From the NCBI RefSeq assembly GCF_026283925.1, contig NZ_JAPDPF010000002.1, positions 434,001 through 498,000 of the forward strand: DNA of 64,000 nucleotides, in the 5' to 3' direction. Shown here in pieces: positions 2,227 to 31,276 of the stretch. The position numbers were made by a program, and so were the translations under genes. Each line of letters begins with the position of its first letter. Position 1 is the first letter of the stretch. Source of the DNA: Dyella halodurans. Lineage in GTDB: Bacteria; Pseudomonadota; Gammaproteobacteria; Xanthomonadales; Rhodanobacteraceae. The notes under the pieces are model-generated. The model saw only the letters and a list, made by a program, of their open reading frames with translations. It made no database searches and was not told the DNA's origin.

Positions 2227-2264
2227 TGTCGAACCGTCCTCATGAAGCTCCATCTTTTCCTTGT

Positions 2265-2343
2265 CGTCATTCCCGCGAAAGCCGAGGCCCATCCTCACTT
2301 TTACCCAAGAAAACCATCAAATCCCGCTTTCGCGGGAATGACG
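2265..2343. repeat. REP-like inverted repeat between sheath and tube genes
   Basis: Two perfect 18-base complementary arms (2265-2282 and 2326-2343), each containing the 'cattcccgcg' core, are separated by 43 bases. They fill most of the 177-base sheath-tube gap. Related hairpin sequence recurs at 18860-18881. In RNA it would form a strong stem that could tune expression of the downstream tube gene or protect the upstream message; that role is inferred. Confidence 0.75.
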
Positions 2344-2403
2344 GCAAAGAGAGAACACGCATTGCCGATGGAACATGACCCGCGTCTTCTACGGAGATGA
2401 ATC

Positions 2404-2931: not shown

Positions 2932-2934
2932 GAC

Positions 2935-8556: not shown

Positions 8557-8566
8557 GGGAACCGAT

Positions 8567-10061: not shown

Positions 10062-10084
10062 CCGAGTCGACACGGAGCCCGCCC

Positions 10085-10600: not shown

Positions 10601-10920
10601 TGCCCGGCCCACTTCTCCAGCAAGGCGCAACGGTCGTGTGCATGCACGGCGGTCAGGCCATGCCGACGGTGCCCAACCCCGCGGTAACGCTAAGCGGCAT
10701 GCCCAGCTCCCTGTTGCCTGAGCCGTGGAGTGTGATCGGATGCGCCGGCATCCCGCCGGCCGGCATTCCTCCTTGCGTTACGGCCCAGTGGACAGCGGGT
10801 ACCACCCGCGTAACATCGTTCGGCCAACCCTTGCTTGTACTGAGCAGCACGGCCGTATGCATGCCGACCGGTACGCCGTTGCTTCCGGTCGTCGCACAAC
10901 TTCGCGTGACGGCGATGTGA
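10600..10920 (+). CDS. PAAR-like spike tip protein
   Basis: 106 aa starting at ATG 10600, overlapping the gpV stop (ATGA) and preceded by GGAGGT. The sequence is Pro/Gly/Thr-rich with repeated short strands and Cys/His residues ('VVCMHGG', 'GCAGIPP', 'IPPCVTA', 'AVCMPTG') suited to the metal site of a PAAR cone. Position right after the spike and before gp25 fits Afp10. An in-frame extension to 10207 only overlaps the gpV gene and is rejected. Confidence 0.8.
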   Translation: MPGPLLQQGATVVCMHGGQAMPTVPNPAVTLSGMPSSLLPEPWSVIGCAGIPPAGIPPCVTAQWTAGTTRVTSFGQPLLVLSSTAVCMPTGTPLLPVVAQLRVTAM

Positions 10921-10927
10921 GGGGCCA

Positions 10928-11302
10928 ATGAACATCGCCTTCCCTTATCAACTCGACACCAGCGGCCACACCGCGCAAGTTGACGTTTCACAGCACGTCG
11001 CCGACATGATCGAGCAGATCCTGTTCACCTCGCCCGGCGAGCGCGTGAACCGTCCCACCTTCGGCAGCGGCACGGCGCAACTGGTCTTCGCGCCGAACAG
11101 CGACGTGCTGGCAATGGCGCAGCAGAACGTGATCCAGGCGAGTCTGCAGATGTGGCTGTCGGATCTGATCCGGGTGCAATCGGTCACTGCAGTCGCCGAC
11201 GATGCGACCTTGCAAATCACCGTGGTCTACACCCTGCTGCAAACCCAACAGCAGCAAACGCAGCAATTCGTCTACGGTAGCGGCCCGGGACCAAGCCCAT
11301 GA
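10928..11302 (+). CDS. gp25-like baseplate wedge protein
   Basis: 124 aa. It has the GPW/gp25 signature: 'VADMIEQILFTSPGERVNRP' with 'FGSGTAQLVFAPN'. gp25 (Afp9) joins the baseplate wedges to the first sheath ring and is the most conserved small protein of contractile systems. AGGGG lies just upstream of the ATG; the stop overlaps the next start (ATGA). The end is Gln-rich. Confidence 0.95.
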   Translation: MNIAFPYQLDTSGHTAQVDVSQHVADMIEQILFTSPGERVNRPTFGSGTAQLVFAPNSDVLAMAQQNVIQASLQMWLSDLIRVQSVTAVADDATLQITVVYTLLQTQQQQTQQFVYGSGPGPSP

Positions 11303-13758: not shown

Positions 13759-16538
13759 GCGTGTGCCCGGCTACGACGGAACAGCTGTGCGGTTGCTGCA
13801 TCGGCATTGCGTTGGAGACGCCGGAATACATCGGTAATCGTCCCGCCTTGCCGGCCATCGCCTATCGCGTCGGACGTTATGCCACGTTCGACGCAAGCAT
13901 GCTGGCCTGCCTTTCGCCAGACGCGTACAAACCCATGGGTTTACTGCGCACGCGCGAGAGCAGTGACTATACCATCGCCCTGCTCGACAGTTGGGCGGTG
14001 GTGCTGGATATCCTGACGTTCTATCAGGAACGCTTCGCGAACGAAGCGCATCTGCGTACGGCGGTCGATCAACGTTCGGTGTTCGAACTGTCGCGACTGA
14101 TCGGCTATGTGCCTTCGCCTGGCGTGGCCGCTTCCGCCGTGCTGGCTTTCACGCTTTCCGATGCACCTGGCTCGCCCGATAACGTGACGATACCGGCCGG
14201 TACGCGCGTGCAGAGTGTGCCAGGACCGGGACAGACGCCGCAGGTGTTCGAAACCAGCACGGCCATCACCGCCATCATCGATTACAACGCCTTGCCGGCG
14301 CAGACGGCGGTGCCATGGCAACTGGCGGGCAGCGACACCTTTACCTGGTTCAAAGGCACGGCCAACAACATCAACGTGGGCGACATGCTGTTGTTTGTCC
14401 GAGCCAAGAACGGTGTGCCCAACGGCACCGGGCCTGGCGATGCGCACTACGTGGTTGCGGTCAACGTCGACAACAACGGCGGCAACACGCAGGTGACATG
14501 GGATGCGCCATTGAACAGCGACTTCCCTGCCGGGCTCGGGACGCAGGACGTTTGCGTCTACATTTTCCGAAAAAAAGCCGCGCTCTATGGCGCGCAGGCC
14601 CCCAACGCCGCGTCGCTGCCCTATTCGGCCGTCCAATACGTGGGAGGCTCGCCTGGCGCCGTAGGTCTCGACTGGGATTACGACCAATACGGCTACGGTA
14701 GCGACCAGATCAGTCTGGATGCGTCCTATGCAGGGCTGACACCCGCATCCGGTGCGCCGCAATGGATCGTGCTCACCACAACACGGGACGTCATCGTGTT
14801 CTTCCAGATCACGAATGCGAACGACGGCAATCCCAATTTCTACACGCTCACCACCAAGGTCACGCAGCTCACGCTCGCCCTGGGCCAGGTGATCGCGCCG
14901 CCCGGTACTTATGCGCTGGACGACGTCCTGGCATATTTTACTGCGGAAACGCGCGGCACTACCGCTTACGTGCAGAGCGTGCAGCTGACGCCGGCCGGTT
15001 TGCCGTTGACACAATGGAGCGGCTCCTACACGTTGTCATCAGGGATGCTCGCACCTGTAGCAGGAAACAAGGTGACGGTGACGGGCGGGCAATTGGTCGT
15101 GCCGGGCCAGCCGACGGGCCTTTCAGGCAAGCGCGTACGCATCCAGGTGCAGCCGGGCGCAAGCGCCAGCTTCACACCCGCACAATCCAGCGCTGAGCTG
15201 ACGGTTGCCGACGACCAGATCTTCCTGGTCGACGCCTATCCGCCGCAGCCGGACCATAGCGGCACGCCGGCGTGGTCGGTTATCAGCTTGAACGGTGTTG
15301 CCGGCACGCTGCGGCTGGACGATGCCTACGTGAAACTGTTGCCCGCCGACAAGAACGATGCCGTGGCGAGCGAAGCGGCACTGGTCAGCACAACCCAGGT
15401 CAACGGCGACCTTTCCGCCATCGGCCTGGACGACGCCCTGGCACGCATCTACGACGCCAGCACAGTCAAGCTGAATGCGAACGCCGTCAGTGCCACGCAA
15501 GGCGAGACCGTGCAAGAGCTGCTGGGCTCAGGCGACGCTACCAATGCCGCGCTGACGTTTACGCTTAAGCAGACACCGCTCACCTATGTCTCGTCCACCA
15601 GCAACAACGGCACGAAGTCCACGCTGCAGGTGTGGGTGAACAATCTTCAATGGCACGAGGTGACCAATCTCCTCGCTGCCGGCCCTGCTGATCGCGTGTT
15701 CGTGACGCGGGCGAACGCGAGCGGACAGACCATGGTGCAGTTCGGCGACGGCATCAACGGTGCGCGCACGCCGACTGGGCAGATGAATATCCGTGCGATC
15801 TATCGCAAAGGCATCGGCAGCGCCGGCAACGTAATCGCTGGACAGCTTTCGCAGGCGCTGGATCGGCCGCAGGGTTTGAAATCCGCCACTAATCCCGGCG
15901 CCGCATCCGGCGGTGCGGACCCGGCAACGGCGGACGACGCGCGTGCGCGCGCTCCGCTGCCAACGCTCACGCTCGCCCGCGTGGTATCGCTGGAGGACTA
16001 TCAGAACTATGCGCTTAACTTCGGTGGCATTGCCAAGGCTGCCGCATCGTGGACGTATTTCAACGGCAGGCGCGGTGTCTTCCTCAGCGTGGCAGGCGCA
16101 GACGGTACGACGTTCCAGCCGGATGATCCGGTGATCATGCATCTGATCCAGTCGCTGCAGACCTACGGTAACCCGTACGTGCCCTTGCAGGTGGTCTCCT
16201 ACGTGCCGGTGCCGTTCCAGATCGCGGCGAGCGTCCGCGTCGATACCGACGATTACGACAACAAGGCCGTGCTGGCGCAGGTGTGGCAGAACATCACCGA
16301 TGTATTTGCTTTTGATCGCCGGCAGCTCGGTCAAAACGTGACAGCCAGCGAAATCATCGAGATTGTACAGCAGACGCCCGGCGTGGTCGCCACACGCCTC
16401 ACGGCGCTGTTCGTCTCCACCGACCCGACCGGCATGGTACCCGCGCAACTCTGCGCGGCCAGCGCGCAACCGCCGCTTGGCGCGCAAATGCTGCAACTGG
16501 ATCCGGCCTGCGAAAACGCCTTCGGAGCATGGACATGA
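13755..16538 (+). CDS. Second gp6/J-like wedge protein (Afp12-like)
   Basis: 927 aa. The N-terminus has the wedge pattern 'WAVVLDILTFYQERFANEA' and 'ELSRLIGYVPSPGVAASAVLAF'; the J-like segment is 'MVQFGDGINGARTPTGQ' and 'YRKGIGSAGNVIAG' near residues 660-695, then 'RVVSLEDYQNYALNF' near 745. It pairs with the preceding protein in each baseplate wedge. A long variable beta region fills residues ~180-600. Both ends overlap neighbours by ATGA. Confidence 0.9.
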   Translation: MSVCPATTEQLCGCCIGIALETPEYIGNRPALPAIAYRVGRYATFDASMLACLSPDAYKPMGLLRTRESSDYTIALLDSWAVVLDILTFYQERFANEAHLRTAVDQRSVFELSRLIGYVPSPGVAASAVLAFTLSDAPGSPDNVTIPAGTRVQSVPGPGQTPQVFETSTAITAIIDYNALPAQTAVPWQLAGSDTFTWFKGTANNINVGDMLLFVRAKNGVPNGTGPGDAHYVVAVNVDNNGGNTQVTWDAPLNSDFPAGLGTQDVCVYIFRKKAALYGAQAPNAASLPYSAVQYVGGSPGAVGLDWDYDQYGYGSDQISLDASYAGLTPASGAPQWIVLTTTRDVIVFFQITNANDGNPNFYTLTTKVTQLTLALGQVIAPPGTYALDDVLAYFTAETRGTTAYVQSVQLTPAGLPLTQWSGSYTLSSGMLAPVAGNKVTVTGGQLVVPGQPTGLSGKRVRIQVQPGASASFTPAQSSAELTVADDQIFLVDAYPPQPDHSGTPAWSVISLNGVAGTLRLDDAYVKLLPADKNDAVASEAALVSTTQVNGDLSAIGLDDALARIYDASTVKLNANAVSATQGETVQELLGSGDATNAALTFTLKQTPLTYVSSTSNNGTKSTLQVWVNNLQWHEVTNLLAAGPADRVFVTRANASGQTMVQFGDGINGARTPTGQMNIRAIYRKGIGSAGNVIAGQLSQALDRPQGLKSATNPGAASGGADPATADDARARAPLPTLTLARVVSLEDYQNYALNFGGIAKAAASWTYFNGRRGVFLSVAGADGTTFQPDDPVIMHLIQSLQTYGNPYVPLQVVSYVPVPFQIAASVRVDTDDYDNKAVLAQVWQNITDVFAFDRRQLGQNVTASEIIEIVQQTPGVVATRLTALFVSTDPTGMVPAQLCAASAQPPLGAQMLQLDPACENAFGAWT

Positions 16539-18817
16539 GCCTCGACGCCGCCGGCCTGTATGCATTGATGCCCGCGGTCTACCGCACGCGCGACGCCGTG
16601 AGCGGCGGACCGCTGCAAGCCTTGTTCAAAGTGCTCGCGCTGCAGGCGGGCATGGTCGAGGAGAATATCCAGCAGCTCTACGATGATGAGTTCGTCGAGA
16701 CCTGCATGCCGTGGGTCATTCCGTATATTGGCGACCTGATTGGCTACAACAGCATCTATCAGATCGCCGCAGGAATCGACAGTCGCGCCGAAGTGGCCAA
16801 TACCATCGGCTACCGGCGGCGCAAGGGAACGCCCATCGCATTGCAGCAGGTAGCCACGAACGTTTCCGGTCGACCCGCCGTGGTGGTTGAGGAATTTCGG
16901 CGCGTGATCACCACACAAAGCATGCGCCTGCCACGACCGCATCACGTGGCGTGCCTCAATCTGCGCTGCAGCGACGTGCTCGAAAACCTGCACGACACCG
17001 CGTTCGATCTGAGCAGCCGTACAGTGGAAGTGAGGCGCATCGCGCCGCGCCTACGCAACATCGCGACCCCCGATCCGGCACCGATCGACATCGCCCTTCA
17101 TGGTGGCGGGCGTTTCAATGTACCGGATATCGCCGTGCATCTGTGGCGGTGCCAGCCGTGGTTTGTCGATCACGCGCCGGCCTTCGTCATCGATGCGCAT
17201 CGCTTCAAGTTCCATCCGATCGGCCTGGACGCGCCGCTGTTTTCACTGCCGCCGACTTATCCTGCCTTCACGCACATCAATACGCGCCTGGACGTACCGC
17301 AGCCGATCCGGCGCGGTGAATTCGAACGCCAGTTGACGGATTTCTACGGCCCTAGCCTCATGCTCTACGCTGACGGCGTAGTTGTGCCCGTGACCCAGAT
17401 CTATAGCGCGAATCTTGCCGATCGCCCGAACGGCACATGGTGCAAAGTCGCCGCTGGCAAGATCGCGATCGATCCCGAACTCGGTCGCATCCAGTACGCC
17501 GCCGATCTCACGCCGCCGCAATCGCTACGCCTGAGCTACACCTACGGTTTTCCGGCGGCTATCGGCGGCGGTCCTTACGACCGCACGGCCACCCTCGGCC
17601 AGGAAATGCCGACCGCCCATCCCGAACAAGCGCAGTTCTTTGCGCAAGTGGGCACGGCGGCATTTCCCGATCTCGCCAGCGCCGTCGCGCAGTGGAATCT
17701 GTTGCCGGCAGGCTCCACCGGCATCATCGTGCTCACAGGCTTTGAGCGCTATGCGATCGACCTCACCGGCGCGAATGCGATTTTACTCGCGTCGGGAAGC
17801 ACGCTCGCCATCGCCGCCGCTGTGCCGGTACCGTCCGGCGGTGCGCGCGACATGGTCTGGAACAACGCCTGCGTCACCCTGCGCGGCAACATCACCGTGC
17901 AAGGGCTTCCGCCACCGGCGATGCCCGAGGGCGAAACGGCGCCACCCGGGCAGTTGATCGTCAATGGCCTATGGATCGAAGGGCAGCTCGTGATGGGCGG
18001 CAACGCCGCCATGATACAGATGTCCGACTGCACGCTGATACCCGGGCTGGGTGCGGCCAATCCTGGGGTCTCGCCATGCGAACCGGGCGTGGTCGTCGGC
18101 AACGACAGTACGTTCTGCATGGCCCGCTGCATTAGCGGTCCGATCGCCGCAAACGTGGCCGGCAGCGTGCGCGTATGCAATAGCATCGTCGACGCAAACT
18201 CGCCGTGCTGTGTGGCGTATGCCGGTCTCGACGGCTATTCGCCCGGCGCCGATCTTCATATCGAAGACAGCACGGTAATCGGCAAAGTCCGCACGCGCAC
18301 TCTGCAGCTCGCGTCCAATACTATCTTCTTCGCACGCCTTGGACGGCACGATCCGTGGCCAGCGGCGCTGTGGTGCAGTCGCCGACAAACCGGTTGCGTG
18401 CGCTTTTGCTCGCTGCCGCGCGAGGCCATCACACCGCGACGTTACGAGTGCCTGCCGCCCGATGCCAGTAGCGCGGCCAGGTTCACGCCAAGCTTCATCA
18501 CGTTGAGCTATGGCCACCCTGCCTACGCACTACTCAGCGGCGTTACGCCCATCGCTGTGTGGCGCGGCGCGGATGATGGCTCGCAAATGGGTGTGTATCA
18601 CCAAATCCAGGAAACCCAGGCGGTATCCAACGTGCAGATCCGCACCCCCGAATATCTGCCGGTGATGCTGGAAGCGGGCATCTTCCTGCATCCCTCGCAG
18701 CCCATGTTGCGTCCCGCACCGCCCGCGTTCAGTTACTACCACCGGGCAGCGAGCTGCTGCGGCGACGACGATGACGACTCGGCGAACCTGCCGGGTATCG
18801 GTTCGAATTTGCTGTAG
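16535..18817 (+). CDS. P2-I-like tail protein with C-terminal beta-rich domain
   Basis: 760 aa from ATG 16535, chosen because it overlaps the preceding stop (ATGA) and has GGAG eight bases upstream; ATG 16529 is also possible. Residues ~1-130 match the phage tail protein I family used in eCIS baseplates ('LYALMPAVYRTRDA', 'WVIPYIGDLIGY', 'RRRKGTPIALQQVA'). Residues ~400-620 alternate hydrophobics and Gly/Asn in the style of a right-handed beta-helix ('GQLIVNGLWIEGQLVMGG' and following), with many Cys residues around 545-640. This arrangement suggests a baseplate-attached fibre or sensor. Confidence 0.82.
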   Translation: MSLDAAGLYALMPAVYRTRDAVSGGPLQALFKVLALQAGMVEENIQQLYDDEFVETCMPWVIPYIGDLIGYNSIYQIAAGIDSRAEVANTIGYRRRKGTPIALQQVATNVSGRPAVVVEEFRRVITTQSMRLPRPHHVACLNLRCSDVLENLHDTAFDLSSRTVEVRRIAPRLRNIATPDPAPIDIALHGGGRFNVPDIAVHLWRCQPWFVDHAPAFVIDAHRFKFHPIGLDAPLFSLPPTYPAFTHINTRLDVPQPIRRGEFERQLTDFYGPSLMLYADGVVVPVTQIYSANLADRPNGTWCKVAAGKIAIDPELGRIQYAADLTPPQSLRLSYTYGFPAAIGGGPYDRTATLGQEMPTAHPEQAQFFAQVGTAAFPDLASAVAQWNLLPAGSTGIIVLTGFERYAIDLTGANAILLASGSTLAIAAAVPVPSGGARDMVWNNACVTLRGNITVQGLPPPAMPEGETAPPGQLIVNGLWIEGQLVMGGNAAMIQMSDCTLIPGLGAANPGVSPCEPGVVVGNDSTFCMARCISGPIAANVAGSVRVCNSIVDANSPCCVAYAGLDGYSPGADLHIEDSTVIGKVRTRTLQLASNTIFFARLGRHDPWPAALWCSRRQTGCVRFCSLPREAITPRRYECLPPDASSAARFTPSFITLSYGHPAYALLSGVTPIAVWRGADDGSQMGVYHQIQETQAVSNVQIRTPEYLPVMLEAGIFLHPSQPMLRPAPPAFSYYHRAASCCGDDDDDSANLPGIGSNLL

Positions 18818-18859
18818 ATACATGAACATGACATCCCGCCAGGAGCTTCACATGGTCAT

Positions 18860-18881
18860 CATTCCTGCGTTCGCGGGAATG
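18860..18881. repeat. Short REP-like hairpin
   Basis: CATTCC-t-GCG / TTCGCGGGAATG forms a near-perfect hairpin in the 114-base gap before the DUF6519 gene. The core words match the larger inverted repeat at 2265-2343. It is the only other sizeable gap inside the eCIS operon. Confidence 0.6.
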
Positions 18882-18931
18882 GCGGCAAAAATCAGGCGAG
18901 ATCTACGACATACCTACACAGGGTAAAGGCC

Positions 18932-21568
18932 ATGAAAGGTGATTTCAGCCGGATTCGCTTCGAGCCGAACAAGCATTACACGGACGTGCTCGATCAACAG
19001 GGCCGTGTGGCTTACGACGCGGATCACAATGAACAGCGCTTTATCGACGGCCACCGGCGCACGGCGCAGACCATCGACACGATTGGCCCTTACGGGGCGC
19101 CCATGGGCGACGCCGGCTTCGCCATCAGCATCGTGGGTGGAAACCTGCAGATCGGCGCCGGACGCTACTACGTGCTGGGCCTTCTGTGCGAGAACCCGGA
19201 CGCGATTTACTACGACCAGCAGCCGTTCCTTCTCGACGGTGGCGATACCGGCAATCCGACGTTCCTGCTGGAAGAATTGTTGCGCCAACGGGACGCTTGT
19301 CTGTGCGTTTATCTGGAAGTGTGGCAGCGCATGGTCACCGCACTGGACGACGATTGCCTGGGCGAACCGGCGCTAGGCCAGGCGGATACGACCGTGCGCA
19401 TGCAGACGGTTTGGCGCGTGGTGGCAAGCTTGCTCATACCCAAGAGCTCATCGAAAGGAACGCTGACGAATCCAGCGAGTGAAAACGCGACGGCGAGTTC
19501 GTCGCTTACGCTTCGAGAAGCGGTACTGCAGGCCAGCGCGAACATGAATGCCGTCCATCTCAAGGCGGCGACGCCCGCGGCGGCGACGGAGAACCCGGCA
19601 TTTACCGACGCTGCGCTCGGCGATGTATCCGCGACACATCAAGCCACCGGCTGCAGCTGCGCGGCGATGTACAAACAATTGCCGCTGGCGCACACCGGCA
19701 CGCTATGCGCCGGGCTCGCCGACAACGGCGGCGATTGCGGTTGCCAGCCGATCCCGGCTGCCGGCTATACCGGCCAGGAGAATCAGCTCTATCGCTTCGA
19801 GATCCAACACACCGGATCGTTGAGCACCGCCACGTTCAAGTGGTCGCGAGAGAATGCGTCCATCGTGGCCGCCGTCCTCGCCGTCACCGGAAACAAGGTG
19901 ACGGTCAGTAGCCTAGGCATGGACGCCAATCTCGGCTTCCAGGAAGGTCAGTGGGTAGAGATCGGCGATGACAACGATCTGTTCGGCGAAACGCCGAATC
20001 AACCCGGCAAGCTGTATCAGATCCAAAGCATCGATCGCCCCTCGCTGACAGTCACGATGACGACGACGGTGCAGCCGGTAGATACCGCACGTCACGCACG
20101 CATGCGTCGTTGGGATCAGAGCGACGCTAGCGCCGGTACCGCAGGGCAGCCATTGTCCGACAACTGGATCGACATCGAAAATGGTATCCGCGTGCGCTTC
20201 GGCAAAGGCCATTACTTCGCTGGCGACGCGTGGGTGGTTCCGGCGCGCAGTGCGACGGGCGACATCGATTGGCCGCCGTGCGGCAGCAATGGCGATTGTT
20301 TTCAGCCGCCGCACTACGCGATGGTGTACCGCGCACCGCTCGCATGCATTCACTCGAACAACGCGTTCAACCGCGCCGCGCTAGACATCAATGAAAGTGT
20401 CGGAAACTATGGCGGTCGCTTCAAGGTCGACGACTGCCGGCGCCTCTTTCCAAGCCTTACCGATATCGGCAACCTGGCCAATGCAAACGCGCTGCACATT
20501 ACTGGCATCAGCTGGAACAACGATCGCGCGATGACCTTCGATGCGCTGATCAAGCAAGGTCTGACGGTGACGTTCGATCAACCGCCCGATAGCCCACTCA
20601 CGCCCGCGAATTTCATCGTCACGTTCGAGATGCCGATGGTGGCGCAGGCGGAGTACGGAACGATGCAGAACGCATTCGCCTTGAATACCTTGAACCCTTC
20701 CCCGCCTGCTCCCGCGGCGTCGCCGGCACCCGCACCCGCGCCGGCGACGCCCGCGCCGGCAGCCGGCGTCGATAAAAACCTGCTCAAAGATATACAGTTT
20801 CGCCTGCTTCCTACGCCGACGACGATCCGCTCGCCGTTCATCGTCGATTCGAGCGTGGCCGCCAACGGTAACGACGTCGTGTGGAGCCTACCTATCCAGG
20901 GGGTCAGCAAAAGCCAGCTAACGGAATTGGAAGCGATCGACTTGGCGCTGGCAGCTTCCGCGCGGCAGGGGTTGCCGGCGCGCGTGCGCGTGAAACTGCC
21001 CGGCCACATGCTTTATGCGACTACCGCCGCGGGCAAGCAGTTGTATCTGGATGGACAGGTATTCGGCATCACCGCCGGATCGGCCAACATTGCATTCAAT
21101 GAGCAGTACGTCGACCTGCAATTCCCGAGCGGTAACGACATGCGGGCCAGCGATTTCGAAAGCTGGTTTTATCTTTATCCCGCGCTGGCGGTGCAAAGCG
21201 TGAGCTTTACTTACAGCCAGGTCACCGTTGCCGATGAAAATGGGAATACCGTGGTGACCAGCACCATGCCGGCAGCCGCCACCAGTCCGGTAGTGCAGCA
21301 GGCAACGATTGCCTTGAATTATTCGGCACTGCAAGCCACCACCGTGCAACTGGCGATGTCGGGCGATGCCAGCATTGCCAGCGTACCTGCGTCGGTGACA
21401 GTACCAGCCGGCGAAAGCAGCGTAACGGTGGATGTGACGCTGCAAGGTGTTCCGCCGAACGCCGGCACGGACTCGTTCACGCTTACGGCGTCGCTGCCTT
21501 CGGCACTGGGCTTCGCCACGTCGCAAACCGCTTCGTTCAGTGTCACCGGCACCCTCTTCTTCAAATAG
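18932..21568 (+). CDS. DUF6519 eCIS protein with C-terminal Ig/Calx-beta-like region
   Basis: 878 aa. The N-terminus 'MKGDFSRIRFEPNKHYTDVL' with 'VAYDADHNEQRFID' is characteristic of DUF6519 proteins that sit downstream of baseplate genes in eCIS loci. A Cys-rich patch ('CSCAAM', 'CGCQPIP') lies near residues 230-275. A Pro/Ala-rich linker (about 588-612) precedes a C-terminal beta-sandwich part that ends with a Calx-beta-like repeat ('SVPASVTVPAGESSVTVDVT'). Likely an outer baseplate or fibre-type component involved in attachment; function inferred from layout. Confidence 0.8.
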   Translation: MKGDFSRIRFEPNKHYTDVLDQQGRVAYDADHNEQRFIDGHRRTAQTIDTIGPYGAPMGDAGFAISIVGGNLQIGAGRYYVLGLLCENPDAIYYDQQPFLLDGGDTGNPTFLLEELLRQRDACLCVYLEVWQRMVTALDDDCLGEPALGQADTTVRMQTVWRVVASLLIPKSSSKGTLTNPASENATASSSLTLREAVLQASANMNAVHLKAATPAAATENPAFTDAALGDVSATHQATGCSCAAMYKQLPLAHTGTLCAGLADNGGDCGCQPIPAAGYTGQENQLYRFEIQHTGSLSTATFKWSRENASIVAAVLAVTGNKVTVSSLGMDANLGFQEGQWVEIGDDNDLFGETPNQPGKLYQIQSIDRPSLTVTMTTTVQPVDTARHARMRRWDQSDASAGTAGQPLSDNWIDIENGIRVRFGKGHYFAGDAWVVPARSATGDIDWPPCGSNGDCFQPPHYAMVYRAPLACIHSNNAFNRAALDINESVGNYGGRFKVDDCRRLFPSLTDIGNLANANALHITGISWNNDRAMTFDALIKQGLTVTFDQPPDSPLTPANFIVTFEMPMVAQAEYGTMQNAFALNTLNPSPPAPAASPAPAPAPATPAPAAGVDKNLLKDIQFRLLPTPTTIRSPFIVDSSVAANGNDVVWSLPIQGVSKSQLTELEAIDLALAASARQGLPARVRVKLPGHMLYATTAAGKQLYLDGQVFGITAGSANIAFNEQYVDLQFPSGNDMRASDFESWFYLYPALAVQSVSFTYSQVTVADENGNTVVTSTMPAAATSPVVQQATIALNYSALQATTVQLAMSGDASIASVPASVTVPAGESSVTVDVTLQGVPPNAGTDSFTLTASLPSALGFATSQTASFSVTGTLFFK

Positions 21569-22494: not shown

Positions 22495-23931
22495 ATGGAC
22501 AAACGCCCAGCCAAGCCGATCGGTGATGTGGTTCGTCCTGCTAGCGCGCGCAAGCAAGGCGGCAATGCCGCGTCATCGTCGGCGCAACGGACAAAGGGGC
22601 CGCAAGCCACCAGCAACGCGACGCCGAAAGCACCGACGCACATTCCCGCTTTGGCGCCAAACGAACACGCTGCAGGTCGCCCCTTGAGCCCCGAACTGCA
22701 GTCTCACTTCGCCACGCGCATGCAAGCCGATCTGAGCAACGTGCGCATCCATACCGACGAAGCGGCCGCACGATCGGCGGCCGACATGCACGCGAAAGCC
22801 TATACCATCGGCAAGGACATCGTCTTCGGTGCGCAACGCTATCAACCTGAAACGCGCGGCGGCGAGCGCTTATTGGCCCACGAATTGGCGCACACGGCGC
22901 AAACCAGCGACACCGCCGCATCAACCGTCAGCAAGCCGACAGACGAGAGCGAACGCGACGCCGACCGCGTGGCCGACGCCGTAACCCGAGGAGATCACGC
23001 GACGCCGCGCGCCAAAGCCAATGCGGCCATTCAACGCGAGCCGCTGAACGACAAGGATGCTTCCAAGCACGAACCCCTGCTCGATCGCATGTTGGACAAG
23101 GCTTCACCTTTGCTCGCCGCGTCGACAGGCTCGACCACCTTGAACAACTTTGATACCGGCAAGTCCGATCTCAAGCCCAAGCATCTCGCCGAGCTTCGAA
23201 AAACCGCGCAGACGATCACGGTACTGCTGCGCCAGTACCCGAACTCCACCGTCACCATCATCGGCCATACCGATACCGTAGGAACGGAAGCACGCAATCT
23301 CGCGCTCGGTCAGGCCCGCGCTACCGCAGCAGCGGATGCACTGGAAAAATTCGGCGTGCCCGCCGCCATCGTCACCACTACCAGCGCCGGCGAAGGTCCG
23401 CCACAGGCCGTGAAGACCAAGGACGAAGTGCCGAATGTGCAAAACCGTCGCGTCGAAGTGCGCTTCGACCCGAAAGCGTCACCCATCCCCAGCATCGTGC
23501 CCAAGCTGGAGCCCAAGAAGCAGGACGAGCCAAGCATCTTTGCACAACCGCCCCCGCCGCCGATCATCGACCTGCGTATTCACCCCCATGACGACGACAT
23601 GCATCCCGTGGGGCCCTACCGCCACGACGATGCACCACCCAATTTGTGGAAGCCGATTCCGCCGGCCCCGAAAGGTACCGGACCGAAATCCGCTCTGGAT
23701 ATCATCGGCGAAAGGATCATCGATCCGGTCGTCGATGGCGTTGCGCATGGCTTGTCCAAGGACATGCGCGACAAGATCAAACAAGCAGCACGCGACGCGG
23801 TGAAATCAGGCGTCGCAAAGGGCGCAAGGGCGGCTGCCGAAGCCGCCGGCTTAAGGGACACGAAGGGACTGGATGCCGTCGAGAAGGCGACGGAAGCGGC
23901 TATCCAAGAAAAGGGACGCACGCCGCCATGA
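22495..23931 (+). CDS. DUF4157 protein with C-terminal OmpA-like domain
   Basis: 478 aa. The DUF4157 (eCIS core) domain covers residues ~60-145: 'LSPELQSHFATRMQADLSNV' and 'RIHTDEAAARSAAD', ending in the zincin-like 'HELAH' (129-133). An OmpA/MotB-like domain follows at ~219-327: 'FDTGKSDLKP', 'VTIIGHTDTVGTEARN', 'NRRVEVRF'. The C-terminus is Pro-rich then Ala/Lys helical. DUF4157 is the domain most often attached to eCIS cargo. OmpA-like domains bind peptidoglycan, but no signal peptide is present. It begins one base after the previous stop. Confidence 0.85.
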   Translation: MDKRPAKPIGDVVRPASARKQGGNAASSSAQRTKGPQATSNATPKAPTHIPALAPNEHAAGRPLSPELQSHFATRMQADLSNVRIHTDEAAARSAADMHAKAYTIGKDIVFGAQRYQPETRGGERLLAHELAHTAQTSDTAASTVSKPTDESERDADRVADAVTRGDHATPRAKANAAIQREPLNDKDASKHEPLLDRMLDKASPLLAASTGSTTLNNFDTGKSDLKPKHLAELRKTAQTITVLLRQYPNSTVTIIGHTDTVGTEARNLALGQARATAAADALEKFGVPAAIVTTTSAGEGPPQAVKTKDEVPNVQNRRVEVRFDPKASPIPSIVPKLEPKKQDEPSIFAQPPPPPIIDLRIHPHDDDMHPVGPYRHDDAPPNLWKPIPPAPKGTGPKSALDIIGERIIDPVVDGVAHGLSKDMRDKIKQAARDAVKSGVAKGARAAAEAAGLRDTKGLDAVEKATEAAIQEKGRTPP

Positions 23932-23952: not shown

Positions 23953-26900
23953 ATGGGCGCCCAGGCCGTCAGCGCCGCCAAGAGTATCGCCGTTGGTGCA
24001 CGTGAGGCGGCAAAGGTGACGCGCGCGAAAGCGCCTGCAGATCGACCCGCGCAACAAGAGCTCGATGCCAGCCGGACCTTTTCCCTGCCCGCTACGTTCG
24101 GGTCGATTCCGGCGCAGGCGCCGGACGAAGGCACGAACCTTCCCTTGCGACTTCAGCGAAAATGCGCGAAGTGCGCTGAGGAAGACGATGACGAACTGAG
24201 CATCCACCGCAAACCATCACTCTCGATATTCTCGGCTCCCGAAGTGGCGCTGCAACGCAAGTGCGACGCGTGCGAAAACGACGACGACAGCGAACATCCC
24301 TCCGTGCAACGTAAACCCGTTGCACTTGGTGACCTCTCTTCGACGAGCGTTTTGCTGCGAAGAAAATGCAACCAGTGTAGTAACGAGGAGCACGACGAAC
24401 TGCCACGGCTGCACCGCAAGCCCGTGCGCCAGGAAACGGATGGCCACGCACGGCAAGCCCCGCTTTCGCGTCCCGAGCACCTCGTTCGCGAAGCCATGCG
24501 TCGCAGCGTGGGGCAAGGCCTCACGCCTACCGTACGCCTCCAGATGGAACATGCCTATGGCGTCGACCTCGGCAACGTGAGGATTCATACTGATACCTCG
24601 GCGAACGAAGCAACACAGGCTGTCGCGGCTCAAGCCTACACGCTTGGGCAAGCCATATATTTCGGTCCTGGTCGTTATCAACCGCACACCACGGCGGGGC
24701 GCGAATTGCTCGCGCACGAACTCGCGCACGTGATCCAGAATCGTCGAGGAAAGGCCTCGAGCTCTTCGCGAGATCACTCCATGCAGGTCAGCGCGCCGAA
24801 CGATGCCTGCGAACTGGAAGCGGACGCCGCCGCTCGCGCAGTGATTGCCGGGGGCATCTTCAACGTACGTGGCAGCGGTGGCGACGCGCTGCACCGGAAA
24901 GATCTGCTTGGCACGGCCATCGAGTGGGGAAAGACCAAGGTCGACCAAGCCGAATCCGCCGTGGGCACCGGCGTCAAGGAAGTTGCCGAATTTACCGGCG
25001 AGCAATTGATTGCACTTGTGCGCAGGGTTGCACCGGGTCTTGCCGACATCATCAGCGAAGGCCCCGTCGATTACGCCAAGCGCAAAGTGTCCGAGGCGCT
25101 GGACGCTCATATGCCGGATGCCCTCGGCGGCTTCAGCCTCAGCGAGCTGGGTCAAAACATCGGCTCGTGGCTTGGCGAGGCCAAGGACTTCGTCAAGGGC
25201 CTGGCCCAGGGCGAAGAAGAAGCTTGCCAGAAATTCACCGGTTTCATGAAGAAGCTCTCCGATTTCGTCGGCAAGTTAATCGACAACCCCGTCGTGAATG
25301 CGGTGACCAGTGTGTTCGACAAGGTCACCGACTTCGTCACCAAGGCGCTCAAGGTTGTCGGCGAACCGCTATTCGACGGTTTGAAGGAATACGTGTCGGG
25401 CGCGTGGTCCGCGCTCAAGAAAGTGGCCAGCACGGTCTCTGGTTGGTTCACCGCGGCAAAAAATGCATTAGGCGATCTGTGGACGAAGTTGATGTCCCTG
25501 CTCGGTTTCGACGGCAGCAGCGAAGACGGCGTATGGAGCTGGATGAAAGGCGAAGCCGCCAAGGTTTGGGATGGCATCAAGGCCGCTGTGCAACCCATCA
25601 TCGAGCCGCTCAAGAAGGTCGCTTCGGTGATTGCGTTGCTGACCCCAATGGGCCAGATCCACGCGATCATCAAGTACGGCCCAAAGGTCGTCGAAGTGGT
25701 GAAATGGATCTGGCAGAACGGGCTGGATCCGGAAAAAATACGCAACGCGCCCGCAGACATACGCGGCATGCTGGAGACGGTCGGCGGCGATGTCGACGGC
25801 TTCAAAGGCAAATTGCAGGAAGGCACGGATTGGCTATCCGACAAAATGTCTTCCTTGGCGGATGCCGTGCTGGATGTCGCGTCCAAGGTGAGCGGACTCC
25901 CGCTAGTGAGCTTCGCGCACCAGATGTTTGACGATGCGCGAGATGCCCTCAATACACTTGTCAAGGACATCAAGGACGGCGCGGACAAGGCCGTGGCCGC
26001 CATCGAGGACGTCGGCAAGAAGATTGCCGATTTCGTGGCACCGTACAAAGAGGTGATTTCCAGCGTGATCCTGGCGATTGCGTCGCCGCCGATGATTCCG
26101 GTCATCCTGGCCGGTTGGGCCTGGCGCAAACTGCCCGATTGCATCAAGTCGCCCATCCTCGATTTCGTCCTCGATATCGCCATCAAAGCGATCGGAAAGA
26201 TTCCAGCCGTGCCGACGTTTGGCCTACTGTGGCCATTGCTGAAGCCGGGGGTGCTCACCTTCCTCGAAACATTGCGCGCCGCCGACAAGACGGTGAAGGA
26301 AGACGTTTCAAACAAGATCGCCAAGATCATCAGCGGTGCAAGCCCCGAATTCCTCATCGCGTTCGTCAAAGGATTCTTGCAGGGCGTGTGGGAAGGCATC
26401 AGCGATCCGATCAGCGCGATCTGGACGGTCATGGATGGTCTCGACAAAGCGACGCAATATCTGCTCAGCCTTGCTGGCCTCGACGACAAAACGGGTGAAG
26501 GCGCGGCGGATGCCAGCGCGCAACCCACAGCTTCGAGCGCCGGCGCGCCCCCTGCCGAGCATCATGCAGCGACATCGTCGCCCGCACCTGCAAAAGCGTC
26601 GACAGCGGGATCCGCCGTCGGACCAGCCGCCCCCGCAACGGCGCCTGCGGCGGCTACCGCCGCGCCGTCGCCCAATCATCACACCGTAACGGCAACACCG
26701 GCAACGGCTCATACCGTGACAGCCAGTGCGGCACCTACTGCGGCTACATCCACCGCAGTCGCGGCCACGTCGTCCGGGAGCGATGCCGAGCGCGACGCGG
26801 CGACGCAGTCGCTGGAGCCCGGCGATATGACGGCACTCAAGAGCGCCGCGGGCGATGCCGCAAAAGCCATCGGGCCCGATGTCGACACCGTCAAGGCGAA

Positions 26901-28872
26901 TTTCTGGGATGCCGTGCAGGAGTACTTCAACGGCAGCAGCATCACGTTCGATGAAATGGTGCAGCGCCTGTCCGAAACCTGGGAAGCAGCCAAGTCCAAG
27001 ATTTCCGAAGGCGGCGCCTGGCTTGCGAATCAGTTGATGACATTCTTCAAAGACGGCGGCGCCGAAGCGGAGGTTGGCGACAAAGTCGGCTGGCTCAGCG
27101 GCACTTTGGTATTCCAGATCGTGCTGGATGCGATTACCGCCGGCACCTGGACCGAAGCCGATTCCATCCTGGTCGGCATTGCCAAGTTCATCAACTGGCC
27201 AATGGAAGCGCTTGGCGAAGCATTCAAGCTACTCAAGTCGCTCGGCAAATACCTGCTCGATGGGCTCAAGAGCCTGGGCTCCGCAATCAAGGAAACGGCT
27301 GCAGGCGCCTTCAAGACCGTATCGAAAGCCATCGGCAGCATCGGTGAGAAATTGCTTGCCTTCGGTGAGCAAATGTTCGGCAAATTCGGTAGCAAGGCAG
27401 CGAAAGCCGAAACCAAAGCGGCTGGCTTGCTGGGTAAGGAAGGCCTTGGACTGGGCGAGCGGGAAGCAACCAAGCTGGCCGAAAAAGACACAGCCAAGGC
27501 GCTGGAAGAGAAAGCCGTGGCCGGCGAATCAAAGGTGACCGGCGAAGCATCTGCCGTAGAAGCAAAGACACCCTCGGAAACCGGTCACATCGAGAGCGAC
27601 AAGCTTTCGCCCAGCCAATTGCACAACGAAACTCAGATGCTTTCCGAGCACCCGGAGATGATGGAAGGTGCCCCGCCACATCGACGTGCCCAGGTGGGTG
27701 AACACGAATGGACCGAAAATACGCTCCCCAATGGTGAATGCGAATTCTGCCGTCACTCCGCAGCACGCGTCTGCATTCAGACCCCGGAACTGCGCGCGCA
27801 AGAACTGGGCAAGGCTGACAAACGCCTGGAAGACGCCCAGAAGCTTGCGCAGGAACAGACCGAAAAGGCGAAGGCGTTGCGCGCGGAAGCAGAAGCGCAC
27901 CCCAACCTGAGCGATGCGGAGAAGAAAAGTCTCGAAGATCAGGCCTCTGCCGCGCGGCAGCGCGCCGCAGCCGCGCAGGATGACGCCAGCAAAGCGAGCA
28001 GCGACCTAAAGAAAGCGAGCAAGAAGGGACGCGCTGATCAAATTGACGACGCACAGCGCCGGCTGGACAAGGCTAACAGCGAACTTAAGGCGGCCCAGAA
28101 TGAAGAAGGTAAAGCCGCGGACGCGCTCAGTGCGAGAGAAAGGAAAGTTCAGGAGGCCGCCGGTGCAGAATCACGTGTTACCGGCACGCAGGAAAGAGTG
28201 AAAACCCTGGAAAAGAACGCCGAACGGCAACGCGAACTCAATCAAACGATCGCGGACATGGAGAAGAAGCGGGCCGACATCTTGGCTAAGAACAAACATA
28301 TGCCGCCACCGACGGGTACCAAGGAGGGACGTGAATTTGCCGAGGCCGAAAGCAAACTGGCTAAAGCCAAGCAGGATCTCCAAGCCGTAGCCGAAGCAGG
28401 TACGGGGCTTACCGCCGAGAGGCGCGAATTGCTGCGCGCCAAGACGCCGTTCAAGGGCGAAGGAAGCGCCGAGCGAAAACGGGAGTGGCTGAAGAAGTTG
28501 CAGGATGAAGGGCACGCCAAAGGCAATTTGTACAAGGACTATGCAACGGGCGAGTACAAGTCGCTGGACAAGCTGTCTCCGGACCACCTCAATCCCGTGG
28601 AAGAGATCTTCAATTACGAAGGATTCGGCGAACTGGGTATTCAGGATCAACTGGAAATTCTCGATCTTCCACAAAATCTCAAGCCATTGGACCGTAGCCT
28701 CAATATGTCCAAGCAAGACGAAGTTCTCGAGAACTGGATAGGCAGCAAAAAACCCAAGGCTCCGAAGATGGGGCAAACCGAATTCGACAAACTCAAGGCC
28801 GAGCGCGACAATGCCAGACAGGCAATCCAGGATGAAATTCAAAAGCGTTTGCAAAGGATGAGGGGCCAGTGA
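23953..28872 (+). CDS. Large DUF4157 eCIS cargo with C-terminal HNH-like nuclease domain
   Basis: 1639 aa. Residues ~67-75, 100-108 and 134-142 repeat 'L[QR]RKCxxC' followed by an acidic run and a basic '[QH]RKP'. DUF4157 follows at ~190-265 with HELAH at 255-259. Then come amphipathic helices (~315-850), a Pro/Ala/Thr linker (~856-946), more helices (~950-1180), a 'CEFC' motif near 1263 and a long charged coiled coil (~1280-1500). The last ~130 residues hold 'LSPDHLNPVEEI', then 'NLKPLDRSLNMSK': Asp1544-His1545, Asn1575 and Asn1584 fit an HNH nuclease core. I infer a DNase or RNase delivered by the particle. The ATG 23953 has only a weak AAGAA site; an ATGA at 23928 starts a 5-codon ORF instead. 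Confidence 0.8.
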   Translation: MGAQAVSAAKSIAVGAREAAKVTRAKAPADRPAQQELDASRTFSLPATFGSIPAQAPDEGTNLPLRLQRKCAKCAEEDDDELSIHRKPSLSIFSAPEVALQRKCDACENDDDSEHPSVQRKPVALGDLSSTSVLLRRKCNQCSNEEHDELPRLHRKPVRQETDGHARQAPLSRPEHLVREAMRRSVGQGLTPTVRLQMEHAYGVDLGNVRIHTDTSANEATQAVAAQAYTLGQAIYFGPGRYQPHTTAGRELLAHELAHVIQNRRGKASSSSRDHSMQVSAPNDACELEADAAARAVIAGGIFNVRGSGGDALHRKDLLGTAIEWGKTKVDQAESAVGTGVKEVAEFTGEQLIALVRRVAPGLADIISEGPVDYAKRKVSEALDAHMPDALGGFSLSELGQNIGSWLGEAKDFVKGLAQGEEEACQKFTGFMKKLSDFVGKLIDNPVVNAVTSVFDKVTDFVTKALKVVGEPLFDGLKEYVSGAWSALKKVASTVSGWFTAAKNALGDLWTKLMSLLGFDGSSEDGVWSWMKGEAAKVWDGIKAAVQPIIEPLKKVASVIALLTPMGQIHAIIKYGPKVVEVVKWIWQNGLDPEKIRNAPADIRGMLETVGGDVDGFKGKLQEGTDWLSDKMSSLADAVLDVASKVSGLPLVSFAHQMFDDARDALNTLVKDIKDGADKAVAAIEDVGKKIADFVAPYKEVISSVILAIASPPMIPVILAGWAWRKLPDCIKSPILDFVLDIAIKAIGKIPAVPTFGLLWPLLKPGVLTFLETLRAADKTVKEDVSNKIAKIISGASPEFLIAFVKGFLQGVWEGISDPISAIWTVMDGLDKATQYLLSLAGLDDKTGEGAADASAQPTASSAGAPPAEHHAATSSPAPAKASTAGSAVGPAAPATAPAAATAAPSPNHHTVTATPATAHTVTASAAPTAATSTAVAATSSGSDAERDAATQSLEPGDMTALKSAAGDAAKAIGPDVDTVKANFWDAVQEYFNGSSITFDEMVQRLSETWEAAKSKISEGGAWLANQLMTFFKDGGAEAEVGDKVGWLSGTLVFQIVLDAITAGTWTEADSILVGIAKFINWPMEALGEAFKLLKSLGKYLLDGLKSLGSAIKETAAGAFKTVSKAIGSIGEKLLAFGEQMFGKFGSKAAKAETKAAGLLGKEGLGLGEREATKLAEKDTAKALEEKAVAGESKVTGEASAVEAKTPSETGHIESDKLSPSQLHNETQMLSEHPEMMEGAPPHRRAQVGEHEWTENTLPNGECEFCRHSAARVCIQTPELRAQELGKADKRLEDAQKLAQEQTEKAKALRAEAEAHPNLSDAEKKSLEDQASAARQRAAAAQDDASKASSDLKKASKKGRADQIDDAQRRLDKANSELKAAQNEEGKAADALSARERKVQEAAGAESRVTGTQERVKTLEKNAERQRELNQTIADMEKKRADILAKNKHMPPPTGTKEGREFAEAESKLAKAKQDLQAVAEAGTGLTAERRELLRAKTPFKGEGSAERKREWLKKLQDEGHAKGNLYKDYATGEYKSLDKLSPDHLNPVEEIFNYEGFGELGIQDQLEILDLPQNLKPLDRSLNMSKQDEVLENWIGSKKPKAPKMGQTEFDKLKAERDNARQAIQDEIQKRLQRMRGQ

Positions 28873-29477
28873 CGCAAAGCATCGAAATTGACGGCAAAAC
28901 GCTTGTGGCCAATTGCGACGCGCGCTGGGACGTCGCGGCCAGATCCATGCTTGACTCCCTGGCCTCCATGCATCGAAGCGGACCTCGACTAAGGCCCGGG
29001 TCGCATATCGACTTTGGATGGGCGATGCTGCAGATCGAAGCGCACGCGGATCATTGGGTCGTTTGCGAACCCGACTACAGTCAGGCTCCACTCCAATGGA
29101 AGCCACAAGTGGACGAAACGATCTGGACGTTGAACCATCAAGCCGCACTACACGCAAAACTGCCTGAAGTAGCCGTTGAGCGCACAAGGGGCGATCAACA
29201 GTTTCACCTTGCGCCCGATGCGCTATTTGCAGACATCGCCTACCTGCGCCGGCTTCCTCCTTCTTCCGCACGGGACAGCGGCTGGTATGCCACGACCAGT
29301 AGGGACTCCACGAATGCGGTGCTTCAACAGACGCAACCTGCGTTGGCTGGAAGCCTTCTTGAGGTGGAACCGGAATGGACGGCTGTACTTAATCTACCCG
29401 TAGGCTTCGTCGCCCAATTCGATCACGATCGACTCGTCGCGGTGTTCGATGCCCGACGCAACCTGGTTTATCCCTAA
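28869..29477 (+). CDS. Putative immunity protein for the HNH-like cargo
   Basis: 202 aa, starting GTG 28869 inside the cargo stop (GTGA) with AGGGG upstream. No signal peptide or membrane segment is visible; the protein is acidic, with Trp-rich strands ('DFGWAMLQIEAHADHWVVCE', 'SGWYATTSRDSTN', 'LPVGFVAQFDHD'). I do not recognise the family with confidence; the 'L-P-x-G-F' ending loosely recalls Imm33-like (DUF2185) proteins. The tight coupling to a toxin-like C-terminus, and its being the last gene of the operon, make a cognate immunity role the simplest reading. The end overlaps the convergent regulator gene by three bases. Confidence 0.6.
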   Translation: MTQSIEIDGKTLVANCDARWDVAARSMLDSLASMHRSGPRLRPGSHIDFGWAMLQIEAHADHWVVCEPDYSQAPLQWKPQVDETIWTLNHQAALHAKLPEVAVERTRGDQQFHLAPDALFADIAYLRRLPPSSARDSGWYATTSRDSTNAVLQQTQPALAGSLLEVEPEWTAVLNLPVGFVAQFDHDRLVAVFDARRNLVYP

Positions 29478-30859
29478 GGAAGTATTTCGCTCCTGCCTCG
29501 AAACCGTTCGGGAGCGATATCGTGCTTTCGCATCAATGCGAAAAACGCCCGTCGGTTCTTCTTGGCATCGAGCGCGGCATGGGTAATGTTTCCGGCGTTC
29601 AAGATGAGCAAGCGTTCGATGTAGGTTTTTTCGAATGCCTCAACCATCCGCGCCTTCGCGACACGGAAGGACTCGACGTTATCGTCGTCAGGCCTGTCGC
29701 AAGGAAGCTGCAAATCATCGGCGCCGATGAATGCACCTTGGCAAAACAACACGGCTCGCTCGATCACGTTGTGCAGTTCGCGCACATTGCCCGGCCAATC
29801 GTAGCTGGCGAGCTTGCGCAGCGCTCGGACGGTGAGGCTGGGCATGGCGCGGTGGCGTTGATGGCAATCATTCTCGATGAAGTGGCGCGCGAGTTCCGGA
29901 ATGTCGTCGCGCCGTTCGCGCAATGCTGGCAAGGTCAAGTTAAGTACGTTGAGGCGAAAGTAGAGATCGCTGCGGAAGACGCCCCGCTCGACCATGGTCG
30001 CGATCTGATGGTTACTGGCGGCGATTACCCGCACATCAGCACGGCAGGTGGTGCAGCTTCCGACGGGGCGGTATTCCTTTTCCTGTAGGAAACGCAGCAG
30101 CTTGGTTTGCGCGCCGAGCGGCAGCGAATCGATTTCATCGAGGAGCAGCGTGCCGCCTTCGGCTTCGCGCACCAGTCCGCTGCGTGCCGCGTGCGCGGAG
30201 GTGTAGGCGCCGCGCGTGCAGCCGAACAATTCGCTTTCCATCAGCTCGGTGGGAATGGCGCCGCAGTTAACCGCTACCAGCGGGCGCGAAGCACGCGGCG
30301 AGAGGTAATGCACCGCCCGTGCGAACACTTCCTTGCCGGTTCCAGTTTCGCCCAGGATCAATACGCTGGCGTCACAGTTGGCGACGATCGGCAATGCCGA
30401 CAGTTGTTTCACGAAGCTGGCACTGGAGCCGATCAACTGATGCGCGCGAGCGACGTTGATCACGGCCGATTCGTCCAGACTTGGATGCGCCAGCAAGAAG
30501 CCGGCCGCGCGCTGCACGCGCGTGCACAACTCGGTATCCGGATAGGGCGACGACACGAAGTCGAAAACGCCCACGCCGAGCAATGCAGCGATCTGTTCCG
30601 AACCAAGGTCTGCACAGACCGCGACGATGTTGCAAGCCGGCATGGCTGAACGCAGCTGCGCGATAGTCATCATCGCCAGCGCTAGCGCTTCGGATTCGAC
30701 CGTAAGCACCACAAGATCGCATAGCATCGGCCCCGCCAGCTGCGGTTGCCAGAAGACATTTATTCCAAGAGTCGCTTGCGCGCACAGCACATCGTAGGCA
30801 TGGCGGGCCAACGCCTCGTGCTCTCCTACCTCCACAACCCCGCAAGTCAGCGTTTCCAT
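29474..30859 (-). CDS. Sigma-54-dependent activator (NtrC family, atypical GAYTSA loop)
   Basis: 461 aa from ATG 30859; an in-frame extension to 31003 is possible. An N-terminal receiver-like domain (~1-130) lacks an obvious Asp-box. The AAA+ domain has Walker A GETGTGKE (~170), Walker B 'GGTLLLDEID', and the sigma-54 contact loop reads G-A-Y-T-S-A rather than GAFTGA. The C-terminus ends with a Fis-like helix-turn-helix ('GNITHAALDAKKNRRAFFAL'). It converges on the eCIS operon and is the best candidate for its regulator, activating RNA polymerase with sigma-54. The loop's F-to-Y change is tolerated in known activators; G-to-S is unusual. Confidence 0.88.
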   Translation of the reverse strand: METLTCGVVEVGEHEALARHAYDVLCAQATLGINVFWQPQLAGPMLCDLVVLTVESEALALAMMTIAQLRSAMPACNIVAVCADLGSEQIAALLGVGVFDFVSSPYPDTELCTRVQRAAGFLLAHPSLDESAVINVARAHQLIGSSASFVKQLSALPIVANCDASVLILGETGTGKEVFARAVHYLSPRASRPLVAVNCGAIPTELMESELFGCTRGAYTSAHAARSGLVREAEGGTLLLDEIDSLPLGAQTKLLRFLQEKEYRPVGSCTTCRADVRVIAASNHQIATMVERGVFRSDLYFRLNVLNLTLPALRERRDDIPELARHFIENDCHQRHRAMPSLTVRALRKLASYDWPGNVRELHNVIERAVLFCQGAFIGADDLQLPCDRPDDDNVESFRVAKARMVEAFEKTYIERLLILNAGNITHAALDAKKNRRAFFALMRKHDIAPERFRGRSEILP

Positions 30860-31276
30860 GGATATGGCCCCGCGGCGCACGCGCCGGCTAGACAGATCCT
30901 GCTGCAAGGACACTTCAGTGATACCGGCGTTGCCGCGATGCTCACCTGGAACGCTGTTCGCTCGCCCTGTTGTCCCCTGCGACCCACCTCGCGCGGCAAC
31001 CAAATTTAATCAAGGTCCCGTGACGATCGAGTAAACGTGCCTTGGTTGGTGATGAGAGCTACGAATACCCTCAGCGACGCAATGCTTTCTGGCGTGGCAC
31101 CAGCTTTGCTTCTTTTTGTAGTGCGCGTGATCGCACCATGCCCCGGTGCGTGCACCAGCTTTATTCGGATGAGGTCTTCTGATACGTGGCCTATCTGCAC
31201 CAGCGCGCACCAATCGCCGCACCAAGACGCTCGGCGTGAGCTCGGGACTACCCTCCCCGGCATTCGTTCGGGCCGG
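30860..31276. other. Intergenic region upstream of the sigma-54 activator
   Basis: 417 bases between the activator and the LysR 3' end. It holds the sigma-54 promoter candidate described separately. No convincing gene is seen; short frames on both strands have poor composition and no ribosome sites. Confidence 0.6.
31095..31110 (+). promoter_or_regulatory. Sigma-54 (-24/-12) promoter candidate
   Basis: TGGCAC-c-agct-TTGCT matches the consensus TGGCACG-N4-TTGCW with exact GG-N10-GC spacing (GG 31096-31097, GC 31108-31109). Transcription would run rightward from about 31121. No + strand gene follows before the LysR gene's 3' end, so the product would be a non-coding or antisense RNA. A 6-bp hairpin (31132-31137 with 31145-31150) lies just after the predicted start. 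Confidence 0.5.

Follow-up and report, generated by a model that had tools for sequence, protein, structure and literature searches.

Does the large cargo protein of the extracellular contractile injection system (eCIS) in Dyella halodurans end in a nuclease, and does the small gene behind it encode the matching antidote? In this paper we address these questions for a stretch of 64,000 nucleotides of this genome (hereafter the window), which contains a gene for a DUF4157 protein of 1639 amino acids (aa), the cargo, and directly downstream a gene for a protein of 202 aa, the partner. Judging from sequence comparison and structure models, we conclude with a probability of about 0.8 that the two genes are those of an eCIS cargo toxin with an HNH-type nuclease tail and of its immunity protein. 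The argument is built on the following features:

23953..28872, + strand: cargo, DUF4157 protein of 1639 aa (open reading frame and Pfam)
24523..24750, + strand: eCIS_core / DUF4157 (PVC-metallopeptidase) domain, residues 191-266 of the cargo, HELAH at residue 255 (PF13699)
28465..28872, + strand: predicted C-terminal HNH-type toxin domain, Tox-DHNNK-like, residues 1505-1639 and stop codon (alignment, model)
28582..28587, + strand: D1544-H1545, predicted catalytic pair at the end of predicted strand 1541-1545 (alignment, AlphaFold2)
28675..28713, + strand: N1575 ... N1584-x-S-K1587, predicted strand 1576-1580 and helix 1581-1587 (alignment, AlphaFold2)
28869..29477, + strand: predicted immunity protein of 202 aa, GTG start (open reading frame and Pfam)
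29172..29447, + strand: Imm33-like domain (PF24719), residues 102-193 of the partner (Pfam)

The tail of the cargo protein

Read from its N-terminus, the cargo comprises the eCIS_core domain (E 2.4e-30, residues 191-266), a long scaffold, an Ala/Pro-rich linker, a conserved segment containing CxxC, a coiled-coil-like stretch and the HNH-type tail. The first-pass annotation of this DNA had pointed to a D-H / N / N layout at the end of the 1639-aa protein, matching that of HNH nucleases, and D1544, H1545, N1575, N1584 and K1587 are indeed present. The loose layout 'DH...N...N' alone was rejected as evidence, as it is not significant in shuffles: it appears in 538 of 20,000 shuffles of residues 1500-1639, and the six-frame stretches of at least 100 aa in the window contain it 9 times. 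A tighter pattern, DHxxP..NL..Nx[ST]K, which was written after the relatives were seen, is found in none of 20,000 shuffles. The layout rises above chance because D, H, N, N and K are conserved across the aligned tails. The five residues do not vary in any of the 18 aligned tails, among them the window's own and several near-identical rows, and they stay unchanged in tails as distant as about 30% identity.

The AlphaFold2 model of the tail (block means of the predicted local distance difference test, pLDDT, 85-95) has a strand-strand-helix core, the beta-beta-alpha arrangement of HNH/His-Me nucleases, which carries the key residues or lies next to them. Among the 25 structure matches of this model in the PDB, 18 are Cas9, HNH, Cap5 or Vvn nucleases, all of them weak. 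The comparison with HNH folds that the first-pass annotation had proposed as a check has thus come out in its favour. The invariant residues of catalytic type, the predicted core and the weak but consistent matches to PDB structures and to GmrSD_C support the prediction that the tail is an HNH / His-Me finger nuclease domain. A PDB sequence search with the tail gave nothing meaningful, and a match to DUF2293 (E 0.024) was rejected, as it covers the C-terminal helix only.

The downstream Imm33-like protein

The partner gene starts inside the stop codon of the cargo gene, as had been noticed at first pass (bases 28869-28872, GTGA). The GTG start agrees with the start position of the related proteins, and a GAGGGG stretch lies just upstream; an identical protein in one database entry (P0006, 150 aa) begins 52 residues later. 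The partner has a pI of 5.4, and all its 19-residue windows are at or below 1.0 on the Kyte-Doolittle scale. Its match to PF24719 (E 4.1e-6, 27.0 bits) lies exactly at the cut-off of 27. The Imm33-like domain is present in all nine members of the partner alignment, the eight relatives being over the cut-off, and an N-terminal part of about 100 aa is likewise common to all nine. Imm-SuFu and Imm34 were considered as candidate families for this N-terminal part. The partner found in Rhodanobacter sp. C05 reaches 23.0 of the 27 bits and is under the cut-off. No match was obtained in a PDB sequence search with the 202-aa protein, and no convincing one in a fold comparison.

The earlier suggestion that this gene confers immunity to the tail is supported by the Imm33-like match, by the two closest loci, in which the two genes are likewise neighbours, and by the published tables of Zhang et al. 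2012 (PMC3482391), where, in the passages cited here, Imm33 is paired exclusively with toxins of the HNH fold (Tox-HNH, Tox-DHNNK and NGO1392-like HNH). We therefore annotate the 202-aa protein as the putative immunity protein for the tail.

Relatives of the pair and their divergence

The same arrangement at the cargo end, an HNH-type tail followed by an Imm33-like gene, is seen in the window, in Dyella sp. M7H15-1 and in Rhodanobacter sp. C05. In Dyella sp. M7H15-1 an eCIS_core cargo of 1553 aa, 31% identical in the tail region, overlaps a 218-aa Imm33-like gene (ATGA). In Rhodanobacter sp. C05 the eCIS_core cargo has 1662 aa, and the 208-aa partner follows after a gap of two bases. The longest contigs of cargo P0018 and Imm33-like protein P0008 both measure 6512 bases, which suggests that the two lie on one contig. 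Identity among the three loci is 65-70% in the scaffold (residues 321-840), 30-45% in the tail and 47-53% in the partner. Joint evolution of toxin and antidote, at a faster pace than that of their carrier, would give such a pattern.

Matches to the 202-aa protein occur in 2 of 148 related genomes (the window's own and Dyella sp. M7H15-1), and matches to the tail in four of them, namely these two, G099 and, weakly, G106. The scaffold was found in 2 of 197 genomes of the family (again the window's own and Dyella sp. M7H15-1) and in 1 of 398 of the phylum, the window's own. A search of genome contigs with the 202-aa protein alone gave no match, and with the alignment of nine partners one locus, that of Rhodanobacter sp. 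C05. The plasmid collection held no relative of the 202-aa protein, and the viral contigs no confirmed relative of scaffold or partner.

Several further hits were set aside. The G106 tail match (E 0.004) was rejected, its open reading frames resembling neither the cargo nor an HNH protein, as were those in G095 and G618 (E about 0.009), which by eye are SbcC-like coiled-coil frames. Matches on Rhodococcus plasmids cover 52 query residues only, and two proteins scanned there contain no nuclease or immunity family. A scaffold match in Sinorhizobium has 22% identity, with no genes listed there.

The tail on other carriers

A homologue of the tail (28% identity over 147 aa, D-H/N/N/K kept) ends a Tox-PAAR-like effector on plasmid pRt932 of Rhizobium tumorigenes, after vgrG and DUF2169 genes; two plasmid records match, and the locus was read in one. 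As in the window, a small gene lies directly downstream of the effector. Unlike in the window, the context is that of vgrG, and the downstream 218-aa product has no similarity to Imm33-like proteins. The C-terminal cassette is thus found on different N-terminal delivery parts (P0021 and the Tox-PAAR-like effector P0026), as in polymorphic toxins. Since a homologous domain sits on a vgrG-associated effector besides the eCIS cargo, the tail is, on sequence grounds, a portable cassette of at least two contractile systems. In G099 (locus L007 586-2385, - strand) a 599-aa protein has the layout DH..N..NSSK around residues 214-267, with a long stretch after it; we regard this as a predicted nuclease domain in another architecture.

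Evidence against this interpretation and alternative explanations

A number of observations weigh against a toxin with its antidote. The window's tail has no HNH-family match in the curated profile scan, GmrSD_C is matched by four relatives under its 23-bit cut-off and not by the others, and the tail is not basic. Because no curated HNH profile exceeds its cut-off, we call the tail HNH-like by its residues and fold and not by profile. Such sub-threshold or absent matches would fit a tail that is either a structural domain or an HNH-like remnant without activity, in which case the pair would be no weapon. We consider this very improbable, given five catalytic-type residues that do not vary even in tails of about 30% identity and an immunity-family gene that is kept beside the tail.

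The four-base overlap between cargo and partner genes recurs at 6 of the 13 operon junctions counted (two of which skip genes left off the junction list). As it is common in the operon, we rejected it as a sign that the two genes form a toxin-antidote unit. Among the three loci the coiled-coil stretch ahead of the tail has 27-34% identity, so that fast divergence alone is no proof of toxin-antidote co-evolution. No fibre gene was recognised in the window, and no fibre with a phage-type match turned up in Pfam or PHROGs.

Two distant relatives of the partner, in G259 and G416, are over the PF24719 cut-off with 17% and 12% identity over the full-length alignment. Their genes adjoin RNB/S1 exonuclease and RelA_SpoT genes, and the HNH tail was not found in either genome, both of which are fragmented. 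These genes may be orphan immunity genes, or else point to a broader role. In P. aeruginosa, the DUF2185-domain protein PA2504 was studied as a partner of RppH, and the word 'immunity' is absent from that text (PMC8466066). It is here that one may ask whether the downstream protein is instead a loading chaperone, adaptor or regulator of the cargo, with protection secondary or absent. Adjacency and co-divergence would look alike for such a protein, the distant relatives and one studied Imm33-domain protein come without a toxin link, and all nine aligned partners share the N-terminal part of about 100 aa. We think this unlikely, as all nine also have the Imm33-like domain and the partner diverges like the tail and not like the scaffold, the part that a loading factor should meet. 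The distant proteins measure 223 aa (G259, L016 1408-2079) and 226 aa (G416, L017 1177-1857) and look like orphans. An Imm33-like match is also present in genome G440.

The eCIS cluster and neighbouring genes

28..21568, + strand: eCIS structural cluster (Pfam scans and PHROGs)
22495..23931, + strand: second eCIS_core protein, 478 aa, with an OmpA domain and its own HELAH motif (Pfam)
29474..31003, - strand: sigma-54-type activator, convergent (domain scan)

The cluster contains Pfam matches to sheath, gp19-type tube, Pvc16_N, AAA ATPase, Phage_base_V spike, gp25 and two Baseplate_J proteins, followed on the + strand by DUF6519 and DUF6734 proteins ahead of both eCIS_core proteins; its T4_baseplate and CIS_tube matches fall under their cut-offs. 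One cluster thus combines the parts of an extracellular contractile injection system, from sheath, tube, baseplate and spike to AAA ATPase, Pvc16-type protein and eCIS_core protein; it may begin upstream of the window. A genome-wide search found two eCIS_core proteins, those of 478 and 1639 aa. The eCIS_core-OmpA protein directly precedes the cargo, with the same architecture, in the window, Dyella sp. M7H15-1 and Rhodanobacter sp. C05, and is possibly a second loading-type protein.

The sigma-54-type activator, possibly a regulator of the eCIS cluster, converges with the immunity gene and shares 4 bases with it. A similar protein adjoins the pair in Rhodanobacter sp. C05 (locus L019 9636-11141), and in Dyella sp. 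M7H15-1 no open reading frame listed right after the pair resembles it.

Two further parts of the cargo can be mentioned. Residues 1231-1290 (window 27643-27822), ahead of the coiled-coil stretch, form a HEW + CxxC...C segment with no Pfam match, 59% identical to the cargo of Dyella sp. M7H15-1 and 70% to that of Rhodanobacter sp. C05, and may represent a small domain of pre-toxin or metal-binding type. The scaffold has a single strongly hydrophobic stretch at residues ~700-725 (Kyte-Doolittle up to 2.16), mostly invariant in the scaffold alignment. By analogy with tape-measure-like effectors, this stretch may assist the contact of the cargo with a membrane. NCBIfam Rad50/SMC matches were rejected as due to the coiled coil.

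Comparison with known systems

The papers compared here are cited for parts of their text, except where stated. Zhang et al. describe Tox-DHNNK as an HNH/EndoVII family with the residues 'DH, N, N, N, K', found in Photorhabdus virulence cassette (PVC) systems together with PVC-metallopeptidase, and tabulate Imm-SUKH, Imm-SuFu and Imm33 as its partners (PMC3482391). The window pair resembles this family in the HNH/EndoVII fold, the DH..N..N..K residues, PVC (eCIS) delivery, DUF4157 and an Imm33 partner. It differs in that the third N of the published motif could not be placed in its tail, and in that its partner is Imm33-like by Pfam with an extra N-terminal part. The Tox-DHNNK families come from comparative genomics, and the window locus is not named in the cited passages. 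The combination of Tox-DHNNK, PVC-metallopeptidase and Imm33 is therefore already known, and the window locus is a well-supported new example of it.

The first-pass annotation had also implied that an antibacterial eCIS with immunity would be new, which is overstated, as toxins and tested pairs are in print (PMC8213781, PMC11566945, PMC13277306). Geller et al. 2021 report 12 antibacterial eCIS toxins and one tested toxin-immunity pair (PMC8213781). The window shares with these toxins the position at the 3' end of the eCIS operon and the adjacent immunity gene, and its cargo follows the layout that they call common, DUF4157, a long linker and a C-terminal toxin. Their EAT5 is unlike the window pair in being a RES-like NADase whose immunity gene lies upstream, and 'HNH' is absent from the main text of the paper as a whole. 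Haloarchaeal DUF4157 toxins (Sci Adv 2024, PMC11566945) likewise have a neutralising gene directly downstream, tested there by tandem expression, but their machine is archaeal, membrane-bound and similar to a type VI secretion system (T6SS), unlike the eCIS of the window, and the cited passages do not name the toxin domains. In the actinobacterial pair RS14790/RS14785 (J Bacteriol 2026, PMC13277306), also an effector of a contractile nanomachine, growth inhibition is relieved by the gene just downstream; this effector is of the tape-measure-related Sle1 type, and Sle1, unlike the window cargo, has no DUF4157 domain of its own. Among the matches listed from the open literature, mostly without subscription papers and bioRxiv, we found no experiments on the window pair, and the papers listed there on Imm33 and DUF2185 include none on Imm33-like proteins neutralising HNH toxins.

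Mechanism and prey

If the family is a guide, the eCIS_core domain and the long scaffold would place the cargo in or on the phage-tail-like particle, and contraction would push it into a target cell. There the HNH-type domain would cut DNA by means of D1544/H1545, N1575, N1584 and a divalent metal, as residue conservation and the predicted fold suggest. From its family and gene linkage, the Imm33-like protein may keep the tail inactive by binding it in the cytosol, both in the producer and in its sister cells. Bacteria that compete with the producer, related strains among them, would be the likeliest prey.

A DNase in the cytosol would endanger the cell that makes it, no matter what the prey is, which raises the question whether the same pair might be aimed at a eukaryote (amoeba, fungus or insect), the immunity gene being there only because the DNase is made in the producer's cytosol. 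A DNase acts on any DNA, the first four eCIS studied act on invertebrate hosts (PMC8213781), and no fibre with a phage-type match was found in the window. Geller et al., in the passages cited, tie immunity genes to antibacterial eCIS, and the homologous tail is carried by a T6SS-associated effector. A notable share of PVC-delivered toxins have no adjacent immunity gene (PMC3482391), so that one which is kept is a mild argument for bacterial prey. We regard eukaryotic prey as possible, though somewhat doubtful; because this explanation overlaps with the nuclease-antidote reading, our confidence in the several readings does not sum to one. Within the nuclease-antidote reading, the odds are perhaps two to one in favour of bacterial prey.

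More tentatively, the released particle may be a kin-discriminating DNase weapon with a fixed scaffold, in which the HNH cassette co-evolves, as an exchangeable pair, with an antidote of two parts (the Imm33-like domain and, N-terminal to it, a new immunity domain). The cassette would then move between eCIS and T6SS, gaining unrelated immunity proteins in each.

Geller et al. describe it as an open puzzle that immunity genes are missing beside most antibacterial eCIS toxins (PMC8213781, cited in part), and this locus is a clean counter-example. Toxin and antidote each resemble a described family and are small enough for testing, and two further genomes contain relatives. With this pair one could test directly whether Imm33-like proteins neutralise HNH toxins and whether competition among close relatives is mediated by eCIS particles.
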